From assembly GCA_963971425.1 (NCBI GenBank), contig OZ020519.1, positions 23,972,786-24,036,785 on the forward strand: 64,000 nucleotides of DNA, read 5' to 3'. Under the pieces are notes generated by a model. That model was not told the origin of the DNA and did not search any database. It saw only the letters and a list, made by a program, of their open reading frames with translations. Source of the DNA: Bryoerythrophyllum caledonicum (taxonomy: Eukaryota; Streptophyta; Bryopsida; Pottiales; Pottiaceae). Of the stretch, positions 17,421 through 58,300 are shown piece by piece. Position numbers and translations under genes: made by a program. The first letter of the stretch is position 1, and every line of letters begins with the position of its first letter.

Positions 17421-18915
17421 TCTCCCTTGATTGTTGGCCCTGGTGTTCCCTCGAGTGCTGTTGGTGATGTTCTCCTTCGTGCTGGATGTGCTTTTGTACA
17501 CGGCTGTTGGCCCGGCTTTTTATGAGGTTCCTTCCGGGTTGGATCCCGGGCTCTTTCCACCTTCCGGGCCAAATTCAGGCTCCTTCCACCTTCCGGGCCA
17601 GATTCGGGCTCCTTCCTTTTTTCGGGCCAAATTCGGGCTTGTGTGGGTTGGCCCGGATGATGGCATTCCCTACCTCTCGGTCTTTATGCGGGTTCGGGCC
17701 CGAGGGACTGCTTTTAGGCTAGAGTCTAAGTTAGAGCTCTAGGTCCCTTCTTGCTACTATTAAGGCTTTTGTAAAAGCCCCGTATTCTTCCTACCTTAAT
17801 CTTACCTAAAGATAAATCCCGGTTGGGGATATCTTGCTTACTTTAAATACCTATAACTACCTAATTAAAAAAATTGAAAAATTCGTGGTACGACAGCTCA
17901 CTAGCTAGATTAGAACACCTTTTTTCTGAATTTAGAAGAAAGATCTGCAAATCATCCCGAAAATGATAGATCCAATGCTTAGAGCAGGCTGGGACATTGG
18001 TCAGGAAGATCATAGAAGAGGGAAACAAGTTCCACTTGACGGCATGGCAAAAGACGACAAACTCGTTTCAAAAGCACGGAACTGCTTTCTTTTACAAGAT
18101 GTACGCACCCATCAACTTCCAACTTTAGTGGTCCTTATAGAGCATGCCTTTGATCTTCTCCAAGCGACAAAACGACTTATAAAAAGTCTTAAACAACTTG
18201 ACCTTCACATTTTGTGATCACGTGTAATGAAAGATATTGAACACGTAGTATCACGAGCACATAACATGCCTCTCATACAAAAATCACACTTGAGCTCACA
18301 TTTTATAACAACGTAAGGCTTTGACAATCACGCCTTCACACCACTTAAAGGAATCACCATGCTCTAATTGCGCGTTAAACATGCATTTAAGCAATTATGC
18401 ACTCAGCCAAGTGCTTAAAACGGCGCTAAAAAACAATAAGATTTTTGTGAAAACGAAATTGAAAAAAAAAAATTAAAAAATTAAAAAAATTAGTATCGCT
18501 TTTGTACTAAATTTACATGTTTGTAGTGTTAAATATTGGCTTCTACATGTGCATGTAAGAGATATACATTCTCTATTTGCTAGAATTTATAAAGAACACA
18601 TGATTATTTATCCAATTTTTGTTCTTTTTAAGATTGTAACAATGATGTAGTTACATTTTGTAGATACACATTTGTACGATTATACAATTTAAGAGTATAT
18701 CACTACGATACAACTTATAAGAGATGCAATAATAAAAGATGCAGTTTAGTGAGAAAGTGTAAGGTATCTCACTTTTTATTGAATGCAAAAACATACTTAA
18801 TCAAACAATTTAAAACTTCTGCAAATAAATACTAAAATCAAACATATCATATTAAACTTAAACATATCAAATGTATCATGATGATCTATCTGCCACCAAA
18901 ACATCACTTACTCTA
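17421..18915. other. no gene recognised
   Basis: 17530-17700 keeps short GGGCC-rich repeats (TTCCGGGCCAAATTCGGGCT variants). After that the sequence is AT-rich. A short + strand frame at 17963-18217 has no recognisable domain and no support beyond being open. Confidence 0.35.
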
Positions 18916-20214
18916 CTATGCTATAGCAGAAGGGTTCTCATCATCCTCTGACAACTCGACTCCCTTCACGTGTCCTATGGCGTTCTTCACCACAGCAGAT
19001 AATTCATGAGCGTGCACCGGATGATATATTGTATCTCCAAGACTTATGGACGCAGACTCAACATATTTGTAACTGCCAGGCTCACCGTGCCGTGTGTGTC
19101 TTATATCGTCATCATTATAGTAGAAGCCATCCTTAAACACATCTCTCGATCTGAGAAGAAGGCCCCCTGAAATTCAGTGACATCCTTCAATACGCCAAAT
19201 CTTGGAAAAAAAGTCAATATCGGTCGCGTATCACTTCTTGTATCTGCAACCCTCTCTTGTGTCTCTGATTCAATCTGTACTTGAAAAGACCCCAAAGCCT
19301 GCCAAACCCTCTTTTGCTCGGTAAAAAATTCAAGCGAGTTGGATGCTTCTCACTATACCTCAAGCGTTTGAGAAACAAATGTTATTTGCCTCTCTTCCCA
19401 TTGACATGGAGCTATCATTCATTACATCAGTATCTTCCATCTTCTCTATCAGTGTCCCTAACATATCCCCCAAAGTGTCTCTCACCACTAGCTACGTTGA
19501 TGGAATCCTCTCCCTGGCATGAGACTTATCCACTTTTTCTTCATCGGTGCTTGAGTCCTCATCGGTCGAGCTATTATCAGACAAATAATATTTTGATCCT
19601 GAAAAACATGGCAATATCTCATTCAAAGTTCCTTCCTCGTTGTCGCCGTTCTTTTGCCTCTCTCCACCAATCGTCTCTTCAGTCTCTTGTACGATGTTAG
19701 GAGCCATGTTAGTTCCACTTTTTGTCTCAGTGATCAACTTCTGTCCTTGAAAATTGTTGCACAACTCATTGTTTAGGAATCTAGCCCTCTCCGTGCAATC
19801 ATCAATGACAATGATCTCATATCCCTGGAAATCCCCTTGATCGATTGTAGGAATGACCATGGAAATACCACATGCCACTAAACCCCTACCTCAACGATAG
19901 TACGGATCCACGAGCCTAGACAAATCCGATGGAGATCTCTCCAAATGATCACCTTCAGAAGGCTGACATGCATCACTCTACAAATCTTGAAATACAAGAG
20001 GAAGTCGACAATCTCCAGAAACATAGATGGGGCCAGGAGGGGTACCAATCGGATGTTGCATGGAAATCACAACAGCTCCAATTGGTTGTACCATTTGCTG
20101 CAAGCGACCACTCTCTATAAAATCAAGAGCATAAGGATCAATCAAGTTGGGATCAAATGCCCAAATTCCATGCCGCATAAAACAATCCTCAAGAAGCTTC
20201 AGCTTTCCGAACAA
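18916..20214 (-). pseudogene. decayed ORF segments, probable end of the 23-29 kb retroelement
   Basis: Minus-strand frames at 19978-20214, 19492-19878 and 18916-19140 can be read through as one decayed protein with stops and frame changes. Segments such as HGIWAFDPNLIDPYALDF and an acidic Ser/Asp stretch (SDNSSTDEDSSTDEE) are protein-like. They have the same orientation as the decayed retroelement at 23190-28800 and are separated from it only by the Tc1-like insertion, so I infer one original element. Function unknown. Confidence 0.45.
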
Positions 20215-20398
20215 CTCTTCATTGGCAAATACGGTTGGTGGTGATAAAATATGATGTTCTATCGTTTAATGTTTGTCATCTATAACGCTACTTGTTCAAA
20301 GGCTCTGGATAATTGCTTATCACCCCATGGACCATCTCCATGCCTCCCACAGCCACGCCAACAATCAATCACCTACAAGCATGGTTTTTCCAATTCTA

Positions 20399-20981
20399 CA
20401 ATAGGGTGACATTCAAATTGGCCGTTTAGTAGTTCCAGGGATAGTGTCCTACACTGCTGCCAACTTTGACACCCTCCCCAAAGCTAAGAAATTGTTATTT
20501 TACCATCAAAATTTGGGGACAGCATCATCTTTATGTTGAAAACATGCATACCAAATTTCAAGTCCAGGAGACTTATACAAAAAAACTTATGCAAGATCTA
20601 CCAACATGGGATAGCTGTGAGAAAAGTGTCACAGCTGCCAACTTTGACACCCTCCCAAGAATTGAGGAAATTGTTTTTGCCCATGAAATTTTTGGAGAAT
20701 TTTTTTTTTTATGTTGTTTGCATGTGTGGAAAATTTCAAGTCCAAAAGACCCATACAAAAAATAATATTCCAAATCTACCAACATGTGTAGTTTTGAGAA
20801 ACAAAGGGGAAAACCATTTTACTACTTCCAACTTTGACGCCCTCCTTAGGATTGAGTTTTTGTTGATACATAATGAAATTTTTGGCACAAGATCATCTCT
20901 ACGCTGGTAACATGTGGGATAAAATTTCAAAGCCAAAAGACATACTTAAAAAAAGTTATTCCATATCTATCAACATGTATA
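20399..20981 (+). repeat. left inverted repeat of the Tc1-like element, three internal repeats
   Basis: Within the arm a diverged unit occurs three times, starting near 20459, 20636 and 20827. Each starts CCAACTTTGACRCCCTCC and later has AAATTTCAARKCCA, then an ATCTAYCAACATG step. Spacing is about 177-191 bp. Repeated sites inside long arms resemble the IR/DR arrangement of some Tc1 elements, where they bind transposase; binding here is inferred. Confidence 0.85.
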
Positions 20982-21602
20982 ACTATGATAAACAATTTGA
21001 AGGTCATATTGAAAATGTTAAAATATCTTTGACACCTCATGTTTTTTCATTGAACTCAATCATGTGAGTAAGCCACCAAAAATAAATGCTTCTCAAAAAG
21101 ATCAATAACATCTAAATGAAGAAGTAAAGAGGTGTTCCATGCAGAAGAATCCACTTGGCCATAAAGTGTGCATTAGATACATGACAAATTTTTTCTTCTA
21201 AATATCTATTGAACACGATGTAAAGGGAATGGTGTGTGTGATTTGTGATAGACTGAATGTTGAGACAATCCTCAAAACAGAGAGTGTTGTATTGTGGGAT
21301 GCATGAGTGTTGATTCACATTGGGCATACATGATGAATGATTAAGAGCAAAACGATTTTTCATGTATGCATATGGGCTTGTGTTTTGGCGACCCTTCTCT
21401 CTCCTCTCTACTCCAGCGCCTTGGCTCCCTTCTCTCCCCCTTGCTCTGCTCCAGCCTTGTTCTCCTTCCTCTGCCAATTGTCACGTGTCAATCCTGCAAC
21501 CCCCTTTGCTCTGCTCTAGCCCCTTGGCCCCCTTCTCTCCCCATTGCTCTGCTCTAACCCCTACTCTATTGCTGTAGCTAGCATCACGCACTCTATAAGT
21601 TT

Positions 21603-22610
21603 ATGATGGCAATTTCAGATGAAATTTGTGCTCGCATCATAGGTTTGAGTGGAGGATTTACAGGAGTTCAAATTGCAGCTACTATTGGAGTTCCTATTAG
21701 AACAGTTACAAGGTTAGTAAAAACATTTAGAGAAGATGGAACCTACAAGCGCAAACCTTGCGGTGGAAGTCACGCTAAAAAGCTTAGTGATAGAGATGTT
21801 CGTAGTATTGTGCATTACTCAAAAATTCATCGTTGCTCTTCATTCTCAGAGATTACCAATGCATGTCCTACTCAAGTGTGTAGACGTACTATTCAAAGGG
21901 TCTTACATAAAAATGACATTTTTGGTCGAATTGCGGTCAAAAAACCTTTTTTGACACCTCGTCATATGTCTCAACCATTAGCTTTTGCTCAGAAGTACCG
22001 TGGATGGAGTGCAAAAGAGTGGAAGGGTGTTGTTTGGATAGATGAATCTACTTTTGAAATTGGAAAAAATTCTCAGCAAATTCATGTTTGGAGAAGTGCA
22101 TACGAGCGTTATTCATCAAGTTGTCTAGCTCCTACTATTAAAAGTGGAAGGACTTCTTTAATGATTTGGGGCGCATTTGCTGGAGGACAAAAGTCAGAAC
22201 TTGTCTTTATGCCTAAAGGTCAACGTTCTGCTAAGGATTTTATAGAAGTGGTTTACGATGCCAAATTGGTTCATTTCATGGGTCAAATTCCACAAGGAGT
22301 GCTTATGGAAGATGGGGCACCCGTCCATAGGAGCAAAATATGTGAAGAATGGAGACAAAGCCACCTTCTCGAAAAGCTCAACTGGCCTGCAAACTCTTCC
22401 GATCTCAATCCAATCGAGAACGTTTGGAGGATGTTAAAAGATGTTGTGCAACATGGCAAACAATGCCTTAGAAGCTTAGATGTGTTGAAGGTAGTTCTTG
22501 AAAGAGAGTGGAAGTTAGTCAATGGTACAAAGCTCCTTCAACTATGTCATTCTATGCCCTCTAGGTTATTAGCAGTGATTGGCGCTAATGGAGGACATAC
22601 ACGTTGGTAG
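21603..22610 (+). CDS. Tc1-like DDE transposase (DD34E)
   Basis: An intact 335-residue protein, the usual size for Tc1/mariner transposases, which cut and paste the element at TA sites. The N-terminus (about 1-110) holds two helix-turn-helix-like parts (GFTGVQIAATIGVPIRTV; CRRTIQRVLHKN), as in paired-type DNA-binding domains. Catalytic triad: first Asp in VVWIDEST (about residue 145), second in VLMEDGAP (about 237), Glu in SSDLNPIENVW, with 34 residues between the last two: DD34E. Well-characterised plant mariner-like elements are mostly DD39D, so this subtype is unusual for the host lineage. The start could be either of the two adjacent ATG codons. The last few codons extend into the right inverted repeat. 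A pyrimidine-rich leader (21390-21560) precedes it. No stop or frameshift. Confidence 0.93.
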   Translation: MMAISDEICARIIGLSGGFTGVQIAATIGVPIRTVTRLVKTFREDGTYKRKPCGGSHAKKLSDRDVRSIVHYSKIHRCSSFSEITNACPTQVCRRTIQRVLHKNDIFGRIAVKKPFLTPRHMSQPLAFAQKYRGWSAKEWKGVVWIDESTFEIGKNSQQIHVWRSAYERYSSSCLAPTIKSGRTSLMIWGAFAGGQKSELVFMPKGQRSAKDFIEVVYDAKLVHFMGQIPQGVLMEDGAPVHRSKICEEWRQSHLLEKLNWPANSSDLNPIENVWRMLKDVVQHGKQCLRSLDVLKVVLEREWKLVNGTKLLQLCHSMPSRLLAVIGANGGHTRW

Positions 22611-23177
22611 ATATGGAATAACTTTTTTGTGTACATCTTTTGGCTTTGAAATTTATCTCACATGTTACCAGCGTAGAGATGATCTTGTGCCAAAAATTTC
22701 ACTATGTATCAACAAAAATTCAATCCTAAGGAGGGCGTCAAAGTTGGAAGTAGTAAAATGGTTTTCCCCTTTGTTTCTCAAAACTACACATGTTGGTAGA
22801 TTTGGAATATTATTTTTTGTATGGGTCTTTTGGACTTGAAATTTTCCACACATGCAAACAACATAAAAATATTTTTGCTCCAAAAATTTCATGGGAAAAA
22901 ACAAATTTCCTCAATTCTTGGGAGGGTGTCAAAGTTGGCAGCTGTGACACTTTTCTCACAGCTATCCCATGTTGGTAGATCTTGCATACGTTTTTTTGTA
23001 TAAGTCTCCTGGACTTGAAATTTGGTATGCATGTTTTCAACATAAAGATGATGCTGTCCCCAAATTTTGATGGTAAAATAACAATTTCTCAGCTTTGGGG
23101 AGGGTGTCAAAGTTGGCAGCAGTGTAGGACACTATCCCTGGAACTACTAAACGGCCAATTTGGAAGTCACCCTATTG
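22597..23177 (-). repeat. right inverted repeat of the Tc1-like element
   Basis: Reverse complement of the left arm, including the same three internal units, ending GTCACCCTATTG before TA. Differences from the left arm are scattered substitutions and small indels in homopolymers, so the arms diverged after insertion or were never homogenised. Confidence 0.9.
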
Positions 23178-23531
23178 TACATGATCTGAATGAAATAACC
23201 CTCTTCTAAACCAAATCATAAGAGAGTTGTGTGGATCATTTTGACCTGGCTTTTGAACTTCCATCTGCCATTCTCAATTGGCAGTGCTCAAATCTCCCAC
23301 ATCGACAGATAAATCATTGTATCCACGCCCCCTTAATAATGATATTTGATGGAAGAGGGGATGAGATGGACTAGGTCTTCCAGCTTAGACACCTTCTCTC
23401 GTATAGGAGCAACCCATGACGTTTTTGTTGGAGCAACTAAATGCTTTGCCAAGGTATAAAGTTGTCCCCTGCCTCTCAAAATTTACTTCAGTACAGATAT
23501 ACCAAAAGAACTCCTCCATAGAACTCGGTGC

Positions 23532-25290
23532 TCATTCTTTGTTGTCGACCATCAACCAATGGATGATATTCATCATTGCTTCTCTTCTTTGAAACCGATC
23601 AACCGCAAAGGCAATGGTAGGATGTTGTGGAATCTTATCATCTATACCATTGAAAAAATACTCTTGGCGAGGTCTACGTCCATATGTCCCCAATGGCTTA
23701 GCTGCACAAGATTGTATCAACTATAGATAATATGAATCTAAAATCGAGCTAAGTAGCCTCAACCAATTTTGAGTCATCACCTTATGCTTTGGTTGCACAT
23801 CAACATTGGAATCCAACTCCTTCTTATGTGCATGCCGCTTCCACTTTATCTCTTCTTTCTTGATGTAAAAAAGAAGTCCATCTTTGTAGTCCTTGCAGAC
23901 GCAAATGATAGCATCAAAACAATCATTGCTCGGATTCCAGGCATGACAGATCAGGTCTTGCATGTTCTTGACCAACTTCTTCATCGTAACTTCATTATCG
24001 TCAGCCATCTTGTGCAACTTATGCACTTCACTTGCGACACTCACCAAAGAAATGCCACTATGTGCATCATTTGCACGGACCAAGCTATCGGGCCTCCAAT
24101 GTAGGAGCCAGATCTAGCGGAGCTTTCTCAAATCCTCTTCGACGGTGAAATAAGATGTTCTCTCCCTCTCCGCTACGTTGATCCGCACCAACTTATCAAT
24201 GAAAAATTGGCGATCATCATACTTCATAAAGGTTGCCTCCTGCCGCTCAAAAAACTTGAGGTACTGAGTTGTCGGGATCATATAGTTCCTCCACTGTTCT
24301 TGTGGAAATTCACAAGCTGCCACTATATGTTGCGCACCCACTAGATTCCAAATAATATGGTCTTCAAGCCAAGCCAATTGAGATCCCATGCCACGTTGCC
24401 ACCATATACAGAAGCACTCCCTTGTGTAAGGAACACGCGCTTAAACTCTTGTGCTGCTCCTTCATTCGGAAACGGCACCTCTTCTTGTAGAACTCTACCG
24501 TCGTCGGAAGTAGTATGCAAAATGTATTTGATGGATCGAAGTACCAATATGTTCATCCAAGTCCTGAACTCTTGATATCTTAAGCGGCTGCACACATCTG
24601 CGGCCCTCTTTTGTGATAAAACTCGATGGTTTGTCTCTGGATTCCCCACTAAAACAATGCGCTCTATGTGTGTGTTAAACACAATATTCCCCCACAATGA
24701 TCGTTTCGCAATCTCACCCGCCGTAGGCACTGAAACTTTGGACCTATGTAAAGTAGGAACTACTGGAATCTCTCTTTACTCCTCTGAATCCTCATGAGGA
24801 TCATTTGCTAGCTTGTAAAACTTCTCTTCCTCTTGCACCACAGCCATTAAGTTTACAAAATCATGCAGTGTAGATGAAGAGACCCTATGATGACATCTAG
24901 ACACTCTAACCTCAACCTAGGCACCCTACCACCCGATCTTGAGGCTCTTCCAATCAACCTCGTACGACCAACACCCAAACTTGATGTAGCTCCATTAAAA
25001 TTAGGAGCTACATCCCTCTGATCACGCCATGGCCGCTTCTAAAGACGTTCACTTTGTACTGGACGATGAGGTGATGTTGGTGTTTCAATGCGGGTATGAG
25101 GTGTTGCGGTGAGATGATGATTTGTATGCCTCTGTGTCTCCCCTGTAGGCTAAAAATCCAATTGTGTTGGACGTGCAAACGCACAATAAACTCGAATTTC
25201 TGTCTCCTCTGGTTTCGCTGGTGGAGCTTGAACTCCAACACTTCTTGGATTTGTCGCCCATAATGCCTCATGTCTAATATACTCATTCAT
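23532..25290 (-). pseudogene. downstream segments of the methyltransferase-bearing element, unknown function
   Basis: Open stretches at 24341-24730, 24114-24389, 23721-24083 and 23532-23720 read as parts of one protein across frame shifts. Examples: HIERIVLVGNPETNHRVLSQ, SRLRYQEFRTWMNILVLRS, FPNEGAAQEFKRVF, and GIDDKIPQHPTIAFAVDRF. Composition is protein-like, but I assign no enzymatic domain. Orientation matches the methyltransferase-like segment and the distances fit one element. Confidence 0.45.
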
Positions 25291-25419
25291 AATCCTCTTA
25301 GTATACAACACCATCTCCGGCAGTAACTCCAAACATGCCAAGATGTTATTGTGCCTAGCAATACGTACCGCAGGATGTATGCTCACCCAAAGCGTAGTCA
25401 AAAAGCAAAGGACTTCAGT

Positions 25420-26150
25420 TAGCACATCAATGTGGGAAATGCCCTTCAAATGAAGCCTATTTGATTTACCATTGCCAATGGTGGCACATCATCCTTGAGA
25501 ATCTCCGTGGACACACGATGATTATCCAAAATGTCATCGACCTGATGGCAAACGGGTTGTTGCACCTCAAGAAGTGCAGAGGTGAGAGCCGCTGAAGAAG
25601 CCATGTAGATCGACATCCAACATAGCCGATAGGCATAGGAGCTCAACTCGGCGGCATCCATAAATGTGGGAGGCTAAAAAAATCATGGATGTATGCAGCA
25701 TCTTTATGCACTTTCGTCCAAGTGTCCTCTAGTAGGGATACAATCTTCAAAATGTACCCGGGTGGTGTCGATTGGTGGGTAATCCACCACATGATGAACC
25801 TAAGCAAATCCGCAAAGAGACCCCACCGTGGATCATCTAATCTGCGTCCATTGCTCGATAGTGAATCAATTAATTCCATCTGATCCAGCTAACAAAGGTC
25901 ATCCTTACTGATTAACGTGACATCACATAGCAATTTGCCAAAACAAGTGCAGATTGCAGAAGGCAATAGTTGCTTCGAATACAACGCATGAAGATATTAA
26001 ATGTGATGGTGAGCGGCACGGTTGGATTCAAAGCCAATATCCACGTAGATGTACCACCGTACCTTAAGCTCCGTATCTAACACAACCGCAACCCCCATAC
26101 CAATACCAGTAAAAAGCTCTACGAGGATAATGCCCTCATTCGATGGTTGT
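25420..26150 (-). pseudogene. cytosine-C5 DNA methyltransferase-like domain, broken
   Basis: Translated leftward from about 26137 the sequence shows C5-methyltransferase motifs in order. Motif I (cofactor binding): VELFTGIGMGVAVVLD (26081-26137), followed 10-15 residues later by the YIYVD strand. Motif IV region: MELIDSLSSNGRRLDDPRWG, where the catalytic Pro-Cys block expected before the LDDPR-type segment is missing. Motif VI region: GYILKIV where GYI-Glu-Asn-Val is expected. Motif VIII-like: MDAAELSSYAYRLCWM. Then DDVPPLAMVNQIG and a motif IX-like RAFPTL in another frame. At least two stops lie between motifs I and IV. Such domains methylate cytosine at carbon 5; this copy cannot, because the catalytic Cys block is gone. 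The identification is by motif order, not by alignment. Confidence 0.6.
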
Positions 26151-27719
26151 CATCAAATAGTTCAAGCTAACAACGGAAAGGAAGGAGCCACTGAGAGTTG
26201 TAGAGCATCAAGAGCATCCTCAATCTCCCGACTGCGATGAGTGAGCACCAATTGAGTCTCCCATGGCGGAAGCCGATCCTTGCAATGACATGTAGGCATC
26301 GCCACTGGTGCGTGCTCACGTGAATCTGCTACCCCCGACATAAATGCATATGTCCCCTCCAAAAGTGTGGAACCACATGGAAAATTTGGTGCTAATACAT
26401 TGCACTCAAACATAGCTTTTGTTGTCGAAGTCACCACGCTAGTTGCAAAGACAACCAAAATGAGTTTCTTGTTGTTATCAGCGGCAGACCACCCACGCCT
26501 AATCCATGTGTGCTATGTCTAGTTATCCACCGCAAAACCAAGTAGATGAAGTACTTGTTGATTCACCAAAATGTTGTAGTTGGTGACACCAATCATAGTG
26601 CACTAAAGAGATACGTGGAAAAACAATGGACCAGATCATATGCCAAACACCAATTGCAACGGATGTCTGGTGTAATCCATGGCTTTTTCTGTGCCGACAA
26701 CCAATGTGAAAATTATAATGGGCAAGGCTTGAGGTCTAAAGCACCTAAACTCAAATCTTGGTGTAACAGCTTGCCAATCATCATTGATTGAGCCCTAGAG
26801 TTCAACATCACACATAGAGGGGTAGCCTGAGTAGAGTTGCCTTTCGTACGCCAACCACCATGACTACATCATGATTCAGTGTTCACCAAACGTACCACCT
26901 TGAGACGTACATTGCACCGCTCTCGTGCCAACTGGCCCGCAATGTCAGACAAATAAGCCACTGTGGAAATCAATGACTGGTCCCCGGATGGTTGCTCCAT
27001 GGATGTGGATGTGGCGTTGGCCTTAAATGCGAAAATAACCTTAAACGCAAAACTACGTTTCATTGCCACTAAATCCTCCTCGGTGGATGGAATCGTCACT
27101 GCCTGCAACACCTTCAATGATGGCATGGGCGCCGTGCCCTCCAACATACTACCTGCCAAGTGAAATACACTAGATGGTCAAAAATTCGGTGTCAGAAAGT
27201 AGATACTGGCAAACACCATCAACCACAACACCTTGTACGCCAAGGATTGTGCGGTGTCTCTATGAAAGAAAAACACGTAAAGCTGAGATTGAGTGGGAAC
27301 AATACTAGAAGTAGCCGCATCTGCAATGCTAAAATAAAGGGATAGCCGGAACTGACAAATGCGATCCGGCAAACCTGCGTGGACGATGGCATGGATGGCC
27401 TCCACTATTTGGCACAGTAGGAGGAGGAGCCATTGTTTGTGCGATAGTCCAAGCACAAGTTGCAACCACTACCACAACCTCCTCCAAAATGTCACATAGG
27501 TAGGCATCAAAGGTTGAAAATGAGCCCTGATCTCTCACCGCAGACTGTAAATCTACGACTTGCCCCAAAGATACCATCTTGCCCATCAGCTTCTTCAACT
27601 TTGCGATTTTGGACTAAAGTGTTCTTACCACATCTGATCCAATAGCGGAAGACCGTGGGAACTTCTCCGGGTGAAGAGCAAAGGAATTCTCGTCACTCTG
27701 GCCAAATTTTGCAACAGTG

Positions 27720-28510
27720 AAAACATGTCACAAGATTCTTTCCCTTGCCCCCAGGCTTCTTCCCCTTGCCCTCAATCTCCTCGCCAGATTTGGCGCCTCG
27801 GTCTTGGGCTTAGCCTTTACTGAGCCTCCCTTCTTCTTCTTGGAACACTTGGGGTCCCTTTTAGTGTGGTCGGCCTCTCTCCAATCTCAACAATGCACAA
27901 CACTCTCAAGTTGTGCATCCACCAAACTACCGATAGCTATAGCAAATTATTTGGCCTTAGAAGCTTCCATCATGGAGGTGATCAAGCTTAAGGCTTCTAT
28001 CACACCAATGGCCTATATAAGATACTTCACCTCGGCAAACGCTTGGGCCAATGTCTCCCTCCCTTGTACCTCAAGAGGAGATGCCAAGTGATTTTTTCCT
28101 ACACCCGTTTATCCACCTTGGACAAAAAAAATCTGCACCAATTGGCATTCTATAAACACATCACCAGCCCCCGCAAATAATGGTGCTAAACGGATTTATA
28201 TAGTGCGGAGAGTATCCTCTTGCTCTTGGTGGAAATCCTTGATGCTCTACATCTGATCATGCCAAAGTCCTTTGTAGTTCATTTCCAAATGCTCCAGGAA
28301 ATGTACGAGGGGGTTGAAAGATGGCGGAGGGCCAACGGCTGCCAATGTCGTGCGTGCTGCTAAGGCCAAGAGCCACATGGTCTCCATGCCACGTCCTTCA
28401 TCCAGAACGGCAAGGCTCTTCTGCTTGGAGTCTTCATTGGAAGAACTTTCTTCTTCCTTGGGCCTGTCAGTAGAAGTCGGGACTTGGGCAACTGCTCTCT
28501 TCTAGGATGC
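27720..28510 (-). pseudogene. gag-like segment of the methyltransferase-bearing element
   Basis: Leftward translation gives pieces resembling retrotransposon gag capsid: FNPLVHFLEHLEMNYKGLWH, IKDFHQEQEDTLRTI and IRLAPLFAGAG, followed by AQAFAEVKYLIEAIG-like helices and a Lys-rich tail (CSKKKKGGSVKAKPKTEAP). Several stops are present. No zinc knuckle is seen. It lies at the 5' end of the decayed element, as expected for gag. Confidence 0.45.
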
Positions 28511-28800
28511 AGTCACCAACTCCACACGATCACGCCGGTAGTCCTCAACTGGACCTCACTGGGCCTCGTGCTACGCAGTCCTCTTTTGTTTGTCTGAAGA
28601 GCCTCTACCTCCAAGTGTACTAGTCGTAAAACGATTGGAGCTTTTATATATTTCAAGTCTAGAATTGAAGCCTCCAATCAGGCAACAAGATGTCCCCAAC
28701 ATGTTCTGAGAATCGGTCTCGGACGACATGACCATGATTGTCCTCCATGTGTGGATGCACTCTCTAGATTGCCTCGTGAGGGGGAGCAGTAATACCAACT

Positions 28801-30729
28801 TTTGATACTCATCATAAACAAATCCTGGGGAAACTATCTACAAGAACTATCTAAGATTAAAATTAAGAACGGGCAACGTGCACCTATAAAAGCACCACAT
28901 CTTTAATTCAAAAAAGCCCCCCTCGGATGGATGAAAACCATGGATGAAGATCCGTCTTGTAAATGAAGACTGACGCAATGGATGAAATCGCCAAAACATT
29001 AGTGCATAGACGCTCCTTGCTTCAATCCTTGCAACGCTCACAATTTCTTCAAAAGTTGTCGAATTTGGACGCTGTTTGTTGCATTTTCTTTGTCTAACCG
29101 CATTCTACAACATTAAAATAAGTAACTACAAAAAAATTCAATTCACCGAAGTTAAAATTAAAGAATCGAAGAAAGAAATGTGGGAGGATTTTTGTAAAGT
29201 GAGAATGTAGCAAATAACTAACATAGTCAAGCATCTCGCACTCTTCAAGGAGAGAATCAACAAGTGCAAGCAAAAATATAGAATGAAGAGCATTTACTAA
29301 TGATAATCATCACTTACAAGCAAAAAAACTTACTAATCACTCTATAAATGCACTCACAAAGCTTGACTTGACAATGACGTCAAAGTCAAGTGTGTACGCG
29401 CTGCTATACCCACACACGCAAAATCCTAACTGATGAAATACATTCATTGGGCGGATGTGATATGGCCAACGTACGTCATGAACAAAAGAAGATTAGAATT
29501 AAGTAATCTACGCTAACACTACGCGATGTGGTGCGGTCCTCAACGCCACATCCCGTGACAATACAACTCTAACACCACTTATTTGCAATACACTCAGTAT
29601 GGTCACTTGCATGAGATGATGTAGGGATAAATGAGACGCCGCATGATGCATACTTCTTGTAGCACATTCATGGCCCTCAACATATTGGCTTTCAACAAAA
29701 TTACATCTTCTACTCTATAAGACTATATTATCAAAAAACCATCATCAAAATCTATAATTCTGACATAAGGTCATCTCATAGCACTAAAATGACCTTATCA
29801 ATTTGAAGAGAATGCAAAAAGGAGAATTTGTCTCATTTTTACATCTCTCATTTCATAAAAAATTAGCACAATAAATTGACAAGAGTGGAAAAGTCGAGAG
29901 ACAAAGAATTTTGTTTGTAGTCCTATAGTTTGGCAAAATCTAGGTCCAATGCGCATCATACATCACCGACTAAGCCGGGTTCCACATGCCTTCCTTGTTT
30001 GTAGCGAAGACTCGCTGCTGAAAATTTTAAACTATCCATCAGATATTTATAAATATTACTCTTGAATTTACCTCAAATCAATTAACGTATTTGTTGTACT
30101 ATCTCATGCTTAAATGTTTTTCTTCACTATCTAAGATGCTAAACTAACTCAAATCCGAAATGTACACCTTCCTCCAAAATCCACCACTAGTTTGTCCAAG
30201 AGTGGCCTACAAAGGTTGAAACTTTAAAAAAAATTGGCAAGCTTTTAAAGCAAGCACAACTGTTATTCTCCACCAAAAACCCTAAAATATCACACTTCCG
30301 TGAAACCCACCCAAATTCAAGCGAGGTCGAGGAAGAACTAGAATAGATATTGGCAAAACAAGGATTCTAAGAGGAGGGCAGATGATGTCATGGAGATGGC
30401 CATAGGTGGGAGAGGAAGGATCAAGAAGGGCAGCAAATAGGAGACCCTCCCTTGGTTACAGATGTTCTACAGTCCAATGTACACAAGAAATTTAGAATAA
30501 TTCAATACTTTAAAGCTTTGTGTCCAAAAATACACAGCGGAGACCAAAAGTACATTGTGTGCCGGCCAGGCCACGTTGTCAACACTTAAAACTTCCATAT
30601 TTTCAACATTTCAAAGTTTTCTTGAATACCAATATTTAGTTGTGTCAATGCTAGTCCTCACTTCACTCTGAAGCCTAGTAATATGGAGACCGCCAAGGCT
30701 CAAGATCTAGTGGCATTCTGACGAAAAGT
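28801..30729. other. AT-rich DNA between two decayed retroelements
   Basis: No gene recognised. It could contain the decayed long terminal repeat of either neighbour, but I could not find a matching pair by eye. Confidence 0.35.
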
Positions 30730-32269: not shown

Positions 32270-33700
32270 CATAGGGTTGGGCGCGCACCTTTGGGCCATG
32301 CGGGTACCTAGATGGACCGCGCGCGTACCTAGAAGGGCCGCACACGTACCTAGAAGGGCCGCGCGCATACCTAGAAGGGCCACGCGCGTACACGAAAAAA
32401 AAAATTAAAAAAAAATAAATTTTTGTACGTGCCCGGCCCTTGTAAACATGGGCCCGACCTTTTGGATGGGGCGCGTACGTACAAGGGTTGGGCGCGTACA
32501 AACAAGGGCTGGGCGCGTACCATCAAGGGTTGGGCGCGTACCATCAAGGGCTGGGCGCATACCATCAAGGGCTGGGCGCATACAAACAAGGGTTGCGCGC
32601 GTACCAAACAGGGCCTCGTGCGTACGCCAAAAAAAAAAAATAATAATAATTTTTGGACGCGCCCGACCATTGTTAGCATGCGCCCGACCTTTTGGATCGG
32701 GCGTGTACGTACAAGGGCTGGGCGCGTACGAACAAGGGCCGCGCGCGTACCTAGCAGGGTCGCGCGCCTACGCAAAAAAAAAATTATTTTTTTATTTTTT
32801 TATTTTTTGCACGCGCCTAACCCTTGTAAGTATGCGCCCGACCTTTTGGATGGGGCGCGTATGTACAAGGGTTGGGAGCGTACAAACAAGGGTTGGGAAC
32901 TTGGGCGCGTACCATCAAGGGCTGGGCGCGTACGAACAAGGGCCGCGCGCGTACCTAGCAGGGCCGCGTGCGTACGCGAAAAAAATAAAAAAAATTGTGG
33001 TTTTTTTTTGTCGCACGCGCCCTGCGCTTGTAAGCATGGGCCCGACCTTTTGGATGGAGCACGTACGTACAAGGGTTGGGCGCGTACAAACAAGGGCTGG
33101 GCGCATACCATCAAGGGTTGGGCGCATACCATCAAGGGCTAGGCACGTACAAACAAGGGCTGCACGCGTACCAAACAGGGCCGCGCGCGTACACCAAAAA
33201 AAATAAAAAAATAAATTTGTACGCGCCCGGCCCTTCTAGGCATGTGCGCGGCCCTATAAGGTAGGCGCGCGGCCCTTTTAGGCACGTGCGGCGCCCCTTA
33301 AGGTACGCTTTGGCCCCTTGGTATACGCGCCCGGCCCCGTAACGTACGCGCCCGACCCCTTTAGGGACGCGCCCGTCTCCTTAAGGTACGAGTTCGACTC
33401 CTTCTAGCACGAGTGGAAGCTCTTTAAGTACGCGCCCGACCCTTTTCGGTACGCACCCGACCCCTTTAGGTACACGCGCGACCCTTTAGATACACGCCCA
33501 ACCCCTTTTTGATACACGCCCAACCCCTTTTTGATACACGCTTGATCCTTTCAAGTACGCGCACGACCCAATGGGTACGCGCCCGACTTTTTTTAGTACG
33601 CACCCGACTCTTTTTAATACGCGCCCGACCCTTTTTAATATGCGCCCAACCCTCATTTAGCGAATGCGGGCATGCGACCGAATGGGTACGCTCAATACTA
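32270..33700. repeat. 21-bp tandem repeat array, block 1
   Basis: Units follow GGGCGCGTACCATCAAGGGYT; other units end CCTAGAAGGGC or CAAACAAGGGCT. The unit is 21 bp, so frames stay open on both strands with heptapeptide periodicity; these are not genes. Higher-order structure: forward units, an A/T-run of 10-30 bp, then inverted units (ACGCGCCCGACC...), then forward units again after CTTTTGGATGGGGCGCGTA (near 32460, 32690, 32850 and 33040). The right third (33210-33700) is mainly in inverted orientation and degenerate. Confidence 0.9.
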
Positions 33701-55580: not shown

Positions 55581-58300
55581 TTATAGTTGTTCACCTATAC
55601 ATCGGAGATATGCATTTTTGAGGGAGAAAGCTTCAAGCCCAAATAGGTTATGTGGGAGTTGGGTTATCACATTTGACATACATTTTGGTAGTCCACATAT
55701 GGTTTTTTTTATGGCTATTATTTTTTTATCAAGTTTTTTGATAGCTGGCATAGAGTATGGTACACCGTAGAAGTTGTATGCTACACCTGGGCGTAGTACG
55801 GTATCAACCATTTTTATTTTTTGTTTCATGGTGGCCGGACATGTTGTTAATTCTTTGCATTGGTTGATGAGTTTTGTGGTTGTAGTGTGAATTTGGATTT
55901 TCCATTTTAGTGAGGGAACAAGATTTGTACCTAGGTATATGTATGGTTCATTTTGATGTAGTATAGGGATTGGTTGATTGCGGTAATTGATGTTAGAAGC
56001 TTGCATTAGGGCTTTGAAAGTGGTAGGGTTCAATTTGGATTTGTTTGGGCATCCGGTAGCGGCACATTTTGGGACACCTACATCCATACCGGTCCATTTG
56101 TAATATCTATCAATTTTATTAAGTTGTATTTGAATAGATTTAATTTTGTTAGTTGTGGCGGCAAGGTCATCAACATATGCTGCAGAGTTTATGGTGATTT
56201 GAGATGTGCCAAAAGTGTATCCATTATTGCATTGTTCTAGCCATCTAAGTAGTGGTTCTAAGAATATAATGAATAGGTATGGGCTAAGGGTGTCCCCTTG
56301 TATAGTTCCTCTTTGAATGGGTATAGGTTTTGTCTTTCCGAAGTGTTCACCGATATAAGGTAGTGGTTGATATTTCCGTGCAGTTCCAAATGTCGCACCC
56401 TACATTCCGGGGCTGTGTGTCAGAAACCAACCAGCCTGGCTTCAGAAAGTGTCCAAGCTTGTTCTAATTCCGCCCATGCTTGGAAAAATTGAGAACTTCT
56501 GATTGGTTCGAATTGGTGCACAAGTGCTCTATTTTCAGAATCCAACTTCTCATGAACACCATGACTCTATGAGCGGTTATTGGCCATTCTAAGCCTTCGT
56601 TCTTAAAAATTCATAGAAAATTGTAGAAATGCTCAATTTTTTTTTTGGGGATGCCTTTGCAGTAGCTTTGCGAAGCATCCAAAAATCATAATTTTTTTTT
56701 TCACAAGTCTAAATATGCAAACCTGAAATTCGGGCGGGAATATCAACCACTACCTTAGTAAGTGGATGATTAGGAGTAGATGTTTCCAACAAGTGTAGTT
56801 GCATCTTTTGGGTAGCCAAGATCCATCGTTATTGCTAATAGTCGAGCATGATCTATCGAGCCAAAGGCATTTTTGAAGTCAACGTATAATATATATATAT
56901 ATATATCTTGATTTGTAAACCGTGCGTCTTCTAGTGTGGCTATTATAGTTTGTATTTGTCGAGCGGTACTTCTCTTTGCTCTAAAGCCTTCTTGGCTAAC
57001 ATGTAGGATTTTGAATTTTTCACCGTATGAGGATAGGATAGAGGTGAGTGTACTAGTGAAGAGCTTATATATTGTGTTAGCTAATGCAATTGGTCTATGG
57101 TTGGGTAGTATAGACGGGTCGCCTTTCTTGTATAGTAAAATTGTTGCGTTTGATTTCCATGAAGTCGGTATTTGTTTTTGTTAGTAGCAGTGAGAGAAGA
57201 AAAAGAATAATAATTTGTGAAATCTTGGAGGCATGTTTTTGAGTATTGAATCTGGTATGCGATCAGGGCGTGGAGCTTTGTTGTTGCCAAGGTTTCAAAG
57301 ACATGTGTCGTATGTGGCTCTATTGAAGTACGTATGTAGTGGAATTTCTAGTTCGCCTCGTTTGTCTAAGGTAAATCCATCAAGGTCATGCCATGGGTAT
57401 TGGCGTACAACACATGTACATTCAATTGGATGTTGTGGTTGGTAATTACATGTTGGTATTGTGGGTCTATTGTTTTTTGTTTGTTGGTTGAATATTTCAT
57501 TCGCAATGTCTTCGGGGCTAGTTAAAATGTTATTATATTGATCTGTGATACAATCTAGTGGTGGGGATTCTAGGTTCTTAGAGACTTTTTTGATAATTTT
57601 CTTAGGGCTAATTACATATATTTGTCTATATTTTGAGATGGCTTTCTTAATGTTCTCTTTGGCGTATTTTGAGGTTATTTTCCTAGCTTGTATGTTGACA
57701 TTTTTTGCAATTAGTGCGATATCTTTTATCCATGTATCGTGGGGTATATCCGGGGGTGGGGGGATGGGAATTGAGTGTGTTGTAGAGTTAGTAGTTCATT
57801 GCATATAGGGTGGTTACGCTAGTGAGATTTTTTTTTTTACAATTCTAATAGTTTTTCGTACAACATGGTATGTAGTTAGATGTTGTTTCCAAGTTTTAGA
57901 AAGTTTGCGGGGTAGATAACCACCTTGTTGAGATGTTCTGTTTGACATTTGAGGTATTGGGTGGGCTCTACAAGTTTGTTCTAGTGTGTCGGAGATTTTA
58001 TTGATGAGTATATCTAGGGTGTCACATGTTTCTTGCCATTGTACTTGTGATAGTTGATTGTTATTTTCAAGAGTGTTTATGAGGGAGTGGATTTGCATGG
58101 AATTTTCTTCAAAGAATTTTGTGTTGAATTTTTCTAAGTTGTCTTTTGGGATGGAGTTGAGTATGCGTATAGTGTCATTACTTAGGATTGTAGGAGTTCT
58201 ATTAATTAATGTGTTATTTGGGATGTGCAATTGTATAGGTGAGTGGTCCGAGTTGAGAATAACATCCTTGTTTGTTGTAGAGGTGTATTGTGTATTTTTG
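55581..58300 (-). pseudogene. LINE reverse transcriptase domain
   Basis: Leftward segments in order: NNKAPRPDRIPDSIL (fingers, about 57270), YKKGDPSILPNHRPIALAN (about 57120-57060), VSQEGFRAKRSTARQIQTII (about 57000-56940), YVDFKNAFGSIDHARLLA (palm A, first catalytic Asp, about 56890-56830), GTIQGDTLSPYLFIIFLEPL (about 56310-56250), AYVDDLAA (catalytic YVDD, 56166-56177) and a thumb-like region to 55581. A 398 bp MITE sits between palm A and the GDTLSP block, and an AT dinucleotide run near 56895 shifts the frame. Confidence 0.82.
56358..56755. mobile_element. 398 bp TA-flanked MITE inside the reverse transcriptase
   Basis: Inverted ends AGGTAGTGGTTGATATT (one further mismatch, then CCG) with TA at both borders (56356-56357, 56756-56757). 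Excising the element and one TA rejoins the RT frame through the expected YIGEHFGK segment, which confirms the borders. The interior has T/A runs and no ORF. Its ends differ from the ACCCCTAA and CACTAAA families. Confidence 0.88.

Follow-up and report, generated by a model that had tools for sequence, protein, structure and literature searches.

The stretch of DNA analyzed here (the window, 64,000 nucleotides at C7:23972786-24036785 of a 437 Mb genome in 894 contigs) carries on its minus strand, from position 29560 to 25401, a decayed repeat that we identify by its sequence as the 5' part of a Gypsy-type retrotransposon: a terminal repeat, a leader and a Gag-protease-C5 methyltransferase region. 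The remnant of its first open reading frame (ORF1), broken into several frames between 28821 and 25401 (25401..28821, minus strand), is collinear with ORF1 of an intact relative, L010, at 51-68% amino acid identity in tblastn comparisons, the matched L010 residues being 6-29, 65-95, 130-522, 522-742, 741-1101 and 1099-1189. At the DNA level, window positions 25420-28750 are 72.9% identical to L010 over 3398 aligned columns, and so the match is not due to chance. A preliminary description had proposed that a decayed retroelement with its own C5 methyltransferase domain lies here, which the collinear match bears out. Its limits of 23190..28800 do not hold, as the true start is upstream, at 29560, and the methyltransferase element ends at about 25401. 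Of the span it had drawn from gag-like to downstream element segments, the gag and methyltransferase part stands, but 23190-25391 belongs to another repeat family, to which it is 82% identical. The methyltransferase retroelement was thus correctly recognized, but the putative leaky stop, the PHD finger and the second family described below went unnoticed.

The element starts with the terminal TGTCACGGG at 29560, and L039, L043, L045 and L046 start identically. The remnant of the 5' terminal repeat (A repeat) lies at 29199..29560 on the minus strand (71% identity to L039, 74% to L040); its inner end, 29199, is approximate and was placed by the length of a relative's A repeat (362 bases). The 71% match spans 29013-29560 and takes in both the 5' repeat and the leader of L039, and the 74% match is to the 3' repeat in L040. 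An untranslated leader remnant (28822..29198, minus strand) separates the repeat from ORF1 and was recognized by its match to L039: positions 29013-29198 fall inside the 71% match and 28824-28897 match the last part of the L039 leader at 77% identity. Within ORF1, the protease segment is found at about 26690..26830 (minus strand, bounds approximate), as judged from the tblastn rows and from Asp_protease_2 in relatives, with N-S-R in place of D-S-G. The methyltransferase segment (25401..26149, minus strand), delimited by alignment to L010, stops short of motif X. It shows motif I (IILVELFTGIG) followed by a motif VI-like stretch (GYILKIV) and by VIII-like and IX-like ones, in the canonical order previously noted. 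The motif numbers are those that we presume for these stretches; the identity of the segment itself rests on the alignment to L010.

As had also been claimed, the copy is dead, because the Pro-Cys block was eliminated by a 24-base deletion (near 25868) and motif VI lacks its Glu-Asn in the alignment to L010 (near 25740). The ORF1 remnant contains 25 in-frame stops per 1087 comparable codons and, between 28800 and 25401, 14 internal indels of which 11 are not multiples of three (tblastn alignment to L010). A tblastn search of the window with the reverse transcriptase and integrase of families A and B (see below) gave no match at E <= 0.01. Differences of the C-to-T type between the window copy and L010 reach 27.4% of 387 positions at CG and 20.4% of 1468 elsewhere, against 9.5% and 9.3%, respectively, for the mirror count. 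Raised C-to-T change at CG and elsewhere is the trace that methylation in several contexts would leave, the comparison being a pairwise one. The observed/expected CpG ratio is 0.59 in the window copy, 0.77 in L010 ORF1 and 0.48 in L048.

Intact relatives and the end of ORF1

The intact relatives anticipated in the same genome form two families, A and B. A search with window positions 25400-27700 gave at least 39 other genomic matches with 73-76% identity (40 of 955 candidates scored), and 29 of these family A loci (L010-L038) were cut out for analysis. The 322-residue methyltransferase region is open in 20 of the 29; string matches found WPCQG in 28, the Glu-Asn string in 25 and both in 24. 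ORF1 of L010 encodes 1353 amino acids and matches DNA_methylase (PF00145) at 1.3e-12, with 48.2 bits against a cut-off of 22. The second frame (ORF2) of another family A copy, L045, matches RVT_1 (3.2e-31), RT_RNaseH (3.5e-38), Integrase_H2C2 (1.3e-17), rve (3.4e-14) and a PHD finger (8.9e-11), which stands after the integrase, at the end of the element. L045 thereby presents the Gypsy domain order Asp_protease_2, RVT_1, RT_RNaseH, Integrase_H2C2, rve. A DIRS identity was rejected since L045 has a DDE integrase and no tyrosine recombinase (phage integrase) family was listed up to E 5 in the same ORF2, which has rve and H2C2.

A genome search with PF00145 yielded 123 scored matches out of 1054 candidates, many of them ORFs of about 1360-1371 amino acids outside family A. 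These represent family B, for example L048, whose ORF1 shows a zinc knuckle above the cut-off (1.3e-5), DNA_methylase (1e-14) and a protease below the cut-off, followed by RVT_1, RNase H and H2C2, beyond which the locus does not extend. Compared with the family A rows of alignment A2, the L048 methyltransferase shows 52-55% identity. Family B is divided into two subfamilies, B1 and B2 (dN 0.063-0.071, dS 1.70-1.76). In alignments A1 and A2, families A and B do not differ in the Pro-Cys-Gln block or the Glu-Asn pair, and the relatives retain the Pro-Cys-Gln and Glu-Asn-Val blocks missing from the window copy. The DNA patterns for AGWPCQG and GWPCQGH occur at 388 and 265 genomic sites, against 5 and 0 for their reversed controls; these counts refer to sites, not to intact elements.

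The preliminary description had asked for reverse transcriptase, integrase and long terminal repeats in the family and for a gag-pol linkage. In the relatives, zinc knuckle, protease, PF00145, reverse transcriptase, RNase H and integrase are linked, and terminal repeats are present. In the copy at C7:13.32 Mb, the 5' A repeat (L039 2090-2451) recurs near the 3' end at 98.6% identity and a 106-base B repeat (99.1%) flanks the 3' A repeat on both sides, which gives an A-coding-B-A-B layout. A second copy, L057, likewise has the closing B repeat at its end.

Concerning the boundary between the two frames, the end of ORF1, which is in frame with ORF2, was recognized in 27 of the 29 family A loci; 26 of them read TAG CAATCA and one TTG CAATCA, so that CAATCA is kept in 27/27. 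All seven family B loci examined read TAG CAACCA. The same UAG-CAATCA stop is found in L059 (CADCWO010000201.1), a family A copy, 91% identical at best, in the cyanobacterial metagenome-assembled genome (MAG) AVDCRST_MAG81, which we infer to be plant DNA contamination from the sampled soil crust. Because members of one family descend from a recent common source, it is the concordance of A, B1, B2 and L059 that counts as independent evidence. The type I readthrough motif is UAG-CARYYA (PMC5382211), and both UAG-CAATCA and UAG-CAACCA fit it as sequences. With such a motif as the ORF1 stop, the methyltransferase should be produced at the level of Gag. The first Met of ORF2 does not appear before residue 117 in L045 (family A) or 82 in L048 (family B), which favours readthrough over a new start. 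Literature searches returned nothing on CARYYA in retrotransposons or on PHD-finger Gypsy integrases.

Class and conservation of the methyltransferase

The 334-residue domain was modelled with AlphaFold2 from a 17-row alignment, in which methyltransferases of bacteria and phages were included, with a mean local confidence (pLDDT) of 72.6, a predicted template modelling score (pTM) of 0.79 and a weak stretch at 228-265; a 551-residue model from alignment A1 was poor (pLDDT 43.5) and was not used. All 50 PDB matches listed by a fold search were DNMT3 entries (best E 2.8e-16), and the best of them had a template modelling (TM) score of 0.65 by query and 0.78 by target. The segment of the intact relative does not align to a non-methyltransferase fold, the outcome that the preliminary description had named as contrary to it; its predicted fold matches DNMT3 methyltransferases. 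A profile search against PDB sequences ranked DNMT3A (1.2e-16) before HhaI (9.2e-9), DRM (5.4e-8) and DNMT2 (near 1e-3), and its list contained no DNMT1 entry. Motifs I, IV, VI, VIII, IX and X are unrearranged in the relatives. The predicted fold and the profile match a DNMT3-like C5 methyltransferase, with predicted methylating activity. We say DNMT3-like and not DNMT3 ortholog because motif IV reads PCQ and not PCN.

A DRM origin and a bacterial or viral origin were rejected. A DRM origin disagrees with the unrearranged motifs and with the better fit of the profile to DNMT3 than to DRM. The scan of viral contigs with alignment A2 found one distant relative, L058, at 27%, and the scan of prokaryote genomes one match, the family A copy L059. 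For a native host DNMT3 gene, a single motif pattern gave 1 match in the genome and 1 in the control, which carries no signal above background.

Substitution rates show selection on the enzyme, with dN/dS of about 0.04-0.12 between lineages. The ratio is 0.037-0.040 between B1 and B2, a rough value because dS (~1.7) is near saturation; comparison of L059 with 20 family A copies gives 0.059-0.117. Among family A copies, pN/pS averages 0.22 in the methyltransferase (190 pairs from 20 copies) and 0.075 in the reverse transcriptase (6 pairs from 4 copies); the dead window copy gave 0.35 against L010.

Neighbouring repeats and the host genome

The methyltransferase element is joined at about 25391-25401 to a piece of the other repeat family (23170..25391, minus strand; 82% identity to L004/L041), which is not part of it. 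The 40 other copies listed for that family all align solely to query positions 1-2207, and the family A search rows begin at position 3 or later of the query starting at window 25400. Since the listed relatives of each side end there, the joint looks particular to the window copy. The same L041-type family continues at 18378..20400 (minus strand, 85% to L041), beyond a Tc1/mariner-like DNA transposon inserted within it (20397..23179, plus strand). This transposon has inverted repeats of ~540 bases, with two overlapping arm pairs at 94-96%, a TA on both sides and an open 342-amino-acid transposase frame at 21582-22607 (DDE_3 6e-16, HTH_Tnp_Tc3_2 3.5e-12). A copy of the other repeat family, at L041 5027-9091, has flanking inverted repeats and an intact 1355-amino-acid ORF. 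For this ORF, Pfam gave nothing above cut-off (N6_N4_Mtase reached no better than E 0.51), and a search of PDB sequences gave no match at E <= 1. Elsewhere in the window, arrays of a 21-base repeat occur in both orientations at 32293-33655, and a reverse transcriptase frame (minus strand, RVT_1 1.5e-12) lies at 55584-56399, inside a G-rich-strand region that extends over 52-62 kb.

The genome contains 58 chlorophyll-binding matches, 53 LTP_2, 15 Dirigent (14 above cut-off) and AUX_IAA at 2 places; AUX_IAA, LTP_2 and Dirigent were absent from the 14 control genomes. Proteins of the dirigent and lipid-transfer families are markers of land plants, and a low number of AUX/IAA genes is indicative of a bryophyte. 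The gene content of the host is land-plant-like, and the host is probably a moss. L049 is an exon of the host DRM gene (DRM2 match 1e-54). Separately, L047 (G000 C14:16015600-16018100), on a 22-Mb contig, encodes a full-length bacterial-type C5 methyltransferase (PF00145 2.4e-64) adjoining a SUKH-family protein, and represents either a bacterial transfer or contamination.

Interpretation and comparison with known systems

We consider it probable that these are Gypsy-type elements with a DNMT3-like methyltransferase in ORF1 and a leaky UAG, which methylate their own complementary DNA (cDNA) in the particle. This explanation starts from the domain order, the stop context, the conservation of the catalytic blocks, the purifying selection, the DNMT3-like fold and the A-coding-B-A-B repeats, all of them observed; to these it adds readthrough, packaging and self-methylation, which we infer. 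Most ribosomes would stop at UAG and give a Gag-protease-methyltransferase, and a minority would read through to give the full polyprotein with reverse transcriptase, RNase H and integrase, plus the PHD finger in family A. The protease would release the methyltransferase within the particle, where it would methylate freshly made cDNA of the element, chiefly at CG, either ahead of integration or during it. A new copy would then arrive already marked and be less harmful to the host, or shielded. The PHD finger may steer integration via histone marks.

Several observations weigh against this explanation. In family A, constraint on the methyltransferase is weaker than on the reverse transcriptase. 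Motif IV is PCQ in both families and PCN in human DNMT3A. The zinc knuckle and protease of L010 are under the Pfam cut-offs; in L045 the protease barely passes its own, and no zinc knuckle is listed for the piece. The whole A-coding-B-A-B layout was seen in one family A copy, a second showing the 3' end alone, and a target-site duplication has a 4-base candidate in one copy and none in another. The enzyme of the comparable Klebsormidium element had no activity in yeast, a result that its authors called inconclusive (PMC5890265).

A broader form of the proposal, which we put forward tentatively and hold to be more doubtful, is that land plants retain an old Gypsy lineage in common with charophytes, in which an enzyme made at the Gag level via a leaky stop of the tobamovirus type is packaged, the cDNA is marked before integration and the PHD finger reads chromatin. 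If so, such a retroelement would insert itself in an already silenced state, and would run counter to the view in print that DNA methylases encoded by transposons were lost in land plants; one published paper describes land plants as being without this kind of element. The genome holds at least two families of methyltransferase elements, with hundreds of sites for the catalytic string, in a setting of land-plant-like gene content. An enzyme on the Gag side makes it testable whether the methyltransferase is packaged and whether the cDNA is methylated before integration, and as mosses are genetically workable, host methylation could be separated from the activity of the element.

The methyltransferase might instead act outside the particle, on host or rival DNA, silencing competitors, countering DNA viruses or altering the host methylome. 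The large copy number and the position in ORF1, which predicts an abundant product, agree with such a role, and Morozov and colleagues proposed an anti-viral one for transposon methylases (PMC6338049); we nonetheless judge it unlikely. Still less credit is due to the idea that a former DNMT3 has become a structural or nucleic-acid-binding part of Gag and no longer methylates. The weaker constraint relative to the reverse transcriptase speaks for it, and so does the presence of both catalytic strings in just 24 of the 29 loci, since some copies lose one. However, Pro-Cys-Gln and Glu-Asn are invariant between A and B despite ~54% identity, and the catalytic blocks were kept even though synonymous divergence between B1 and B2 is nearly saturated; a mere scaffold need not keep them. 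The idea that methyltransferase-like motifs in junk DNA came together in this segment by chance or through faulty assembly, as its broken frames and the patchwork of two repeat families and a DNA transposon could suggest, can be dismissed in view of the 3.4-kb collinear match to an intact family with at least 39 other scored copies and the independent copy L059 in another record.

The dinoflagellate and charophyte precedents invoked in the preliminary description stand as claimed (PMC5890265), and both the streptophyte and the dinoflagellate cases were restated in a 2025 paper (PMC12344493). The closest known system is KnitGypsy-Dnmt3 of Klebsormidium nitens, a DNMT3 captured by a Gypsy element (de Mendoza et al. 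2018, PMC5890265) and described as having DIRS-like repeats with Gypsy-like domains. Both systems combine Gypsy domains with a DNMT3-type methyltransferase under purifying selection in a streptophyte host, and share the A-coding-B-A-B repeats, seen here in family A. In the published description, however, the methyltransferase of KnitGypsy-Dnmt3 is in the Pol polyprotein ORF, whereas here it belongs to the Gag-protease frame upstream of UAG-CARYYA and would join Pol solely through readthrough of the ORF1 stop. The land-plant-like host, the two diverged families and the PHD finger after the integrase further set our elements apart from KnitGypsy-Dnmt3 as described; neither "readthrough" nor "PHD" occurs in the main text of PMC5890265. 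SymbioDIRS-Dnmt3 and SymbioLINE-Dnmt of Symbiodinium (PMC5890265) are likewise high-copy retroelements with C5 methyltransferases, the SymbioDIRS domain being of the DNMT3 type, and the SymbioDIRS enzymes methylate CG in yeast. They are DIRS elements with a tyrosine recombinase, or long interspersed nuclear elements (LINE), whereas the elements described here have a DDE integrase (rve) after the reverse transcriptase and RNase H.

Among cellular enzymes, DNMT3A/3B give the best profile and fold matches and have the same unrearranged motifs I, IV, VI, VIII, IX and X, but identity is ~20% in the fold alignment, PCQ replaces PCN and the element domain is inside a Gag-protease polyprotein. The host DRM gene (L049) is of the same superfamily and in the same genome, yet it has rearranged motifs and is an exon of a cellular gene, whereas the element domain is unrearranged and nearer to DNMT3. 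The type I readthrough of tobamoviruses (PMC5382211) also places UAG and then CARYYA between two in-frame coding regions; here the context is a retroelement and the readthrough is predicted. Title and abstract searches found no reports of such elements in mosses, and subscription papers were mostly outside these searches, so that absence in print is unproven. The capture of a DNMT3 by Gypsy elements was already known from K. nitens (PMC5890265), and the new features are a host that looks like a land plant, the presence of two diverged families, the position of the methyltransferase ahead of a conserved stop predicted to be leaky, and a PHD finger.

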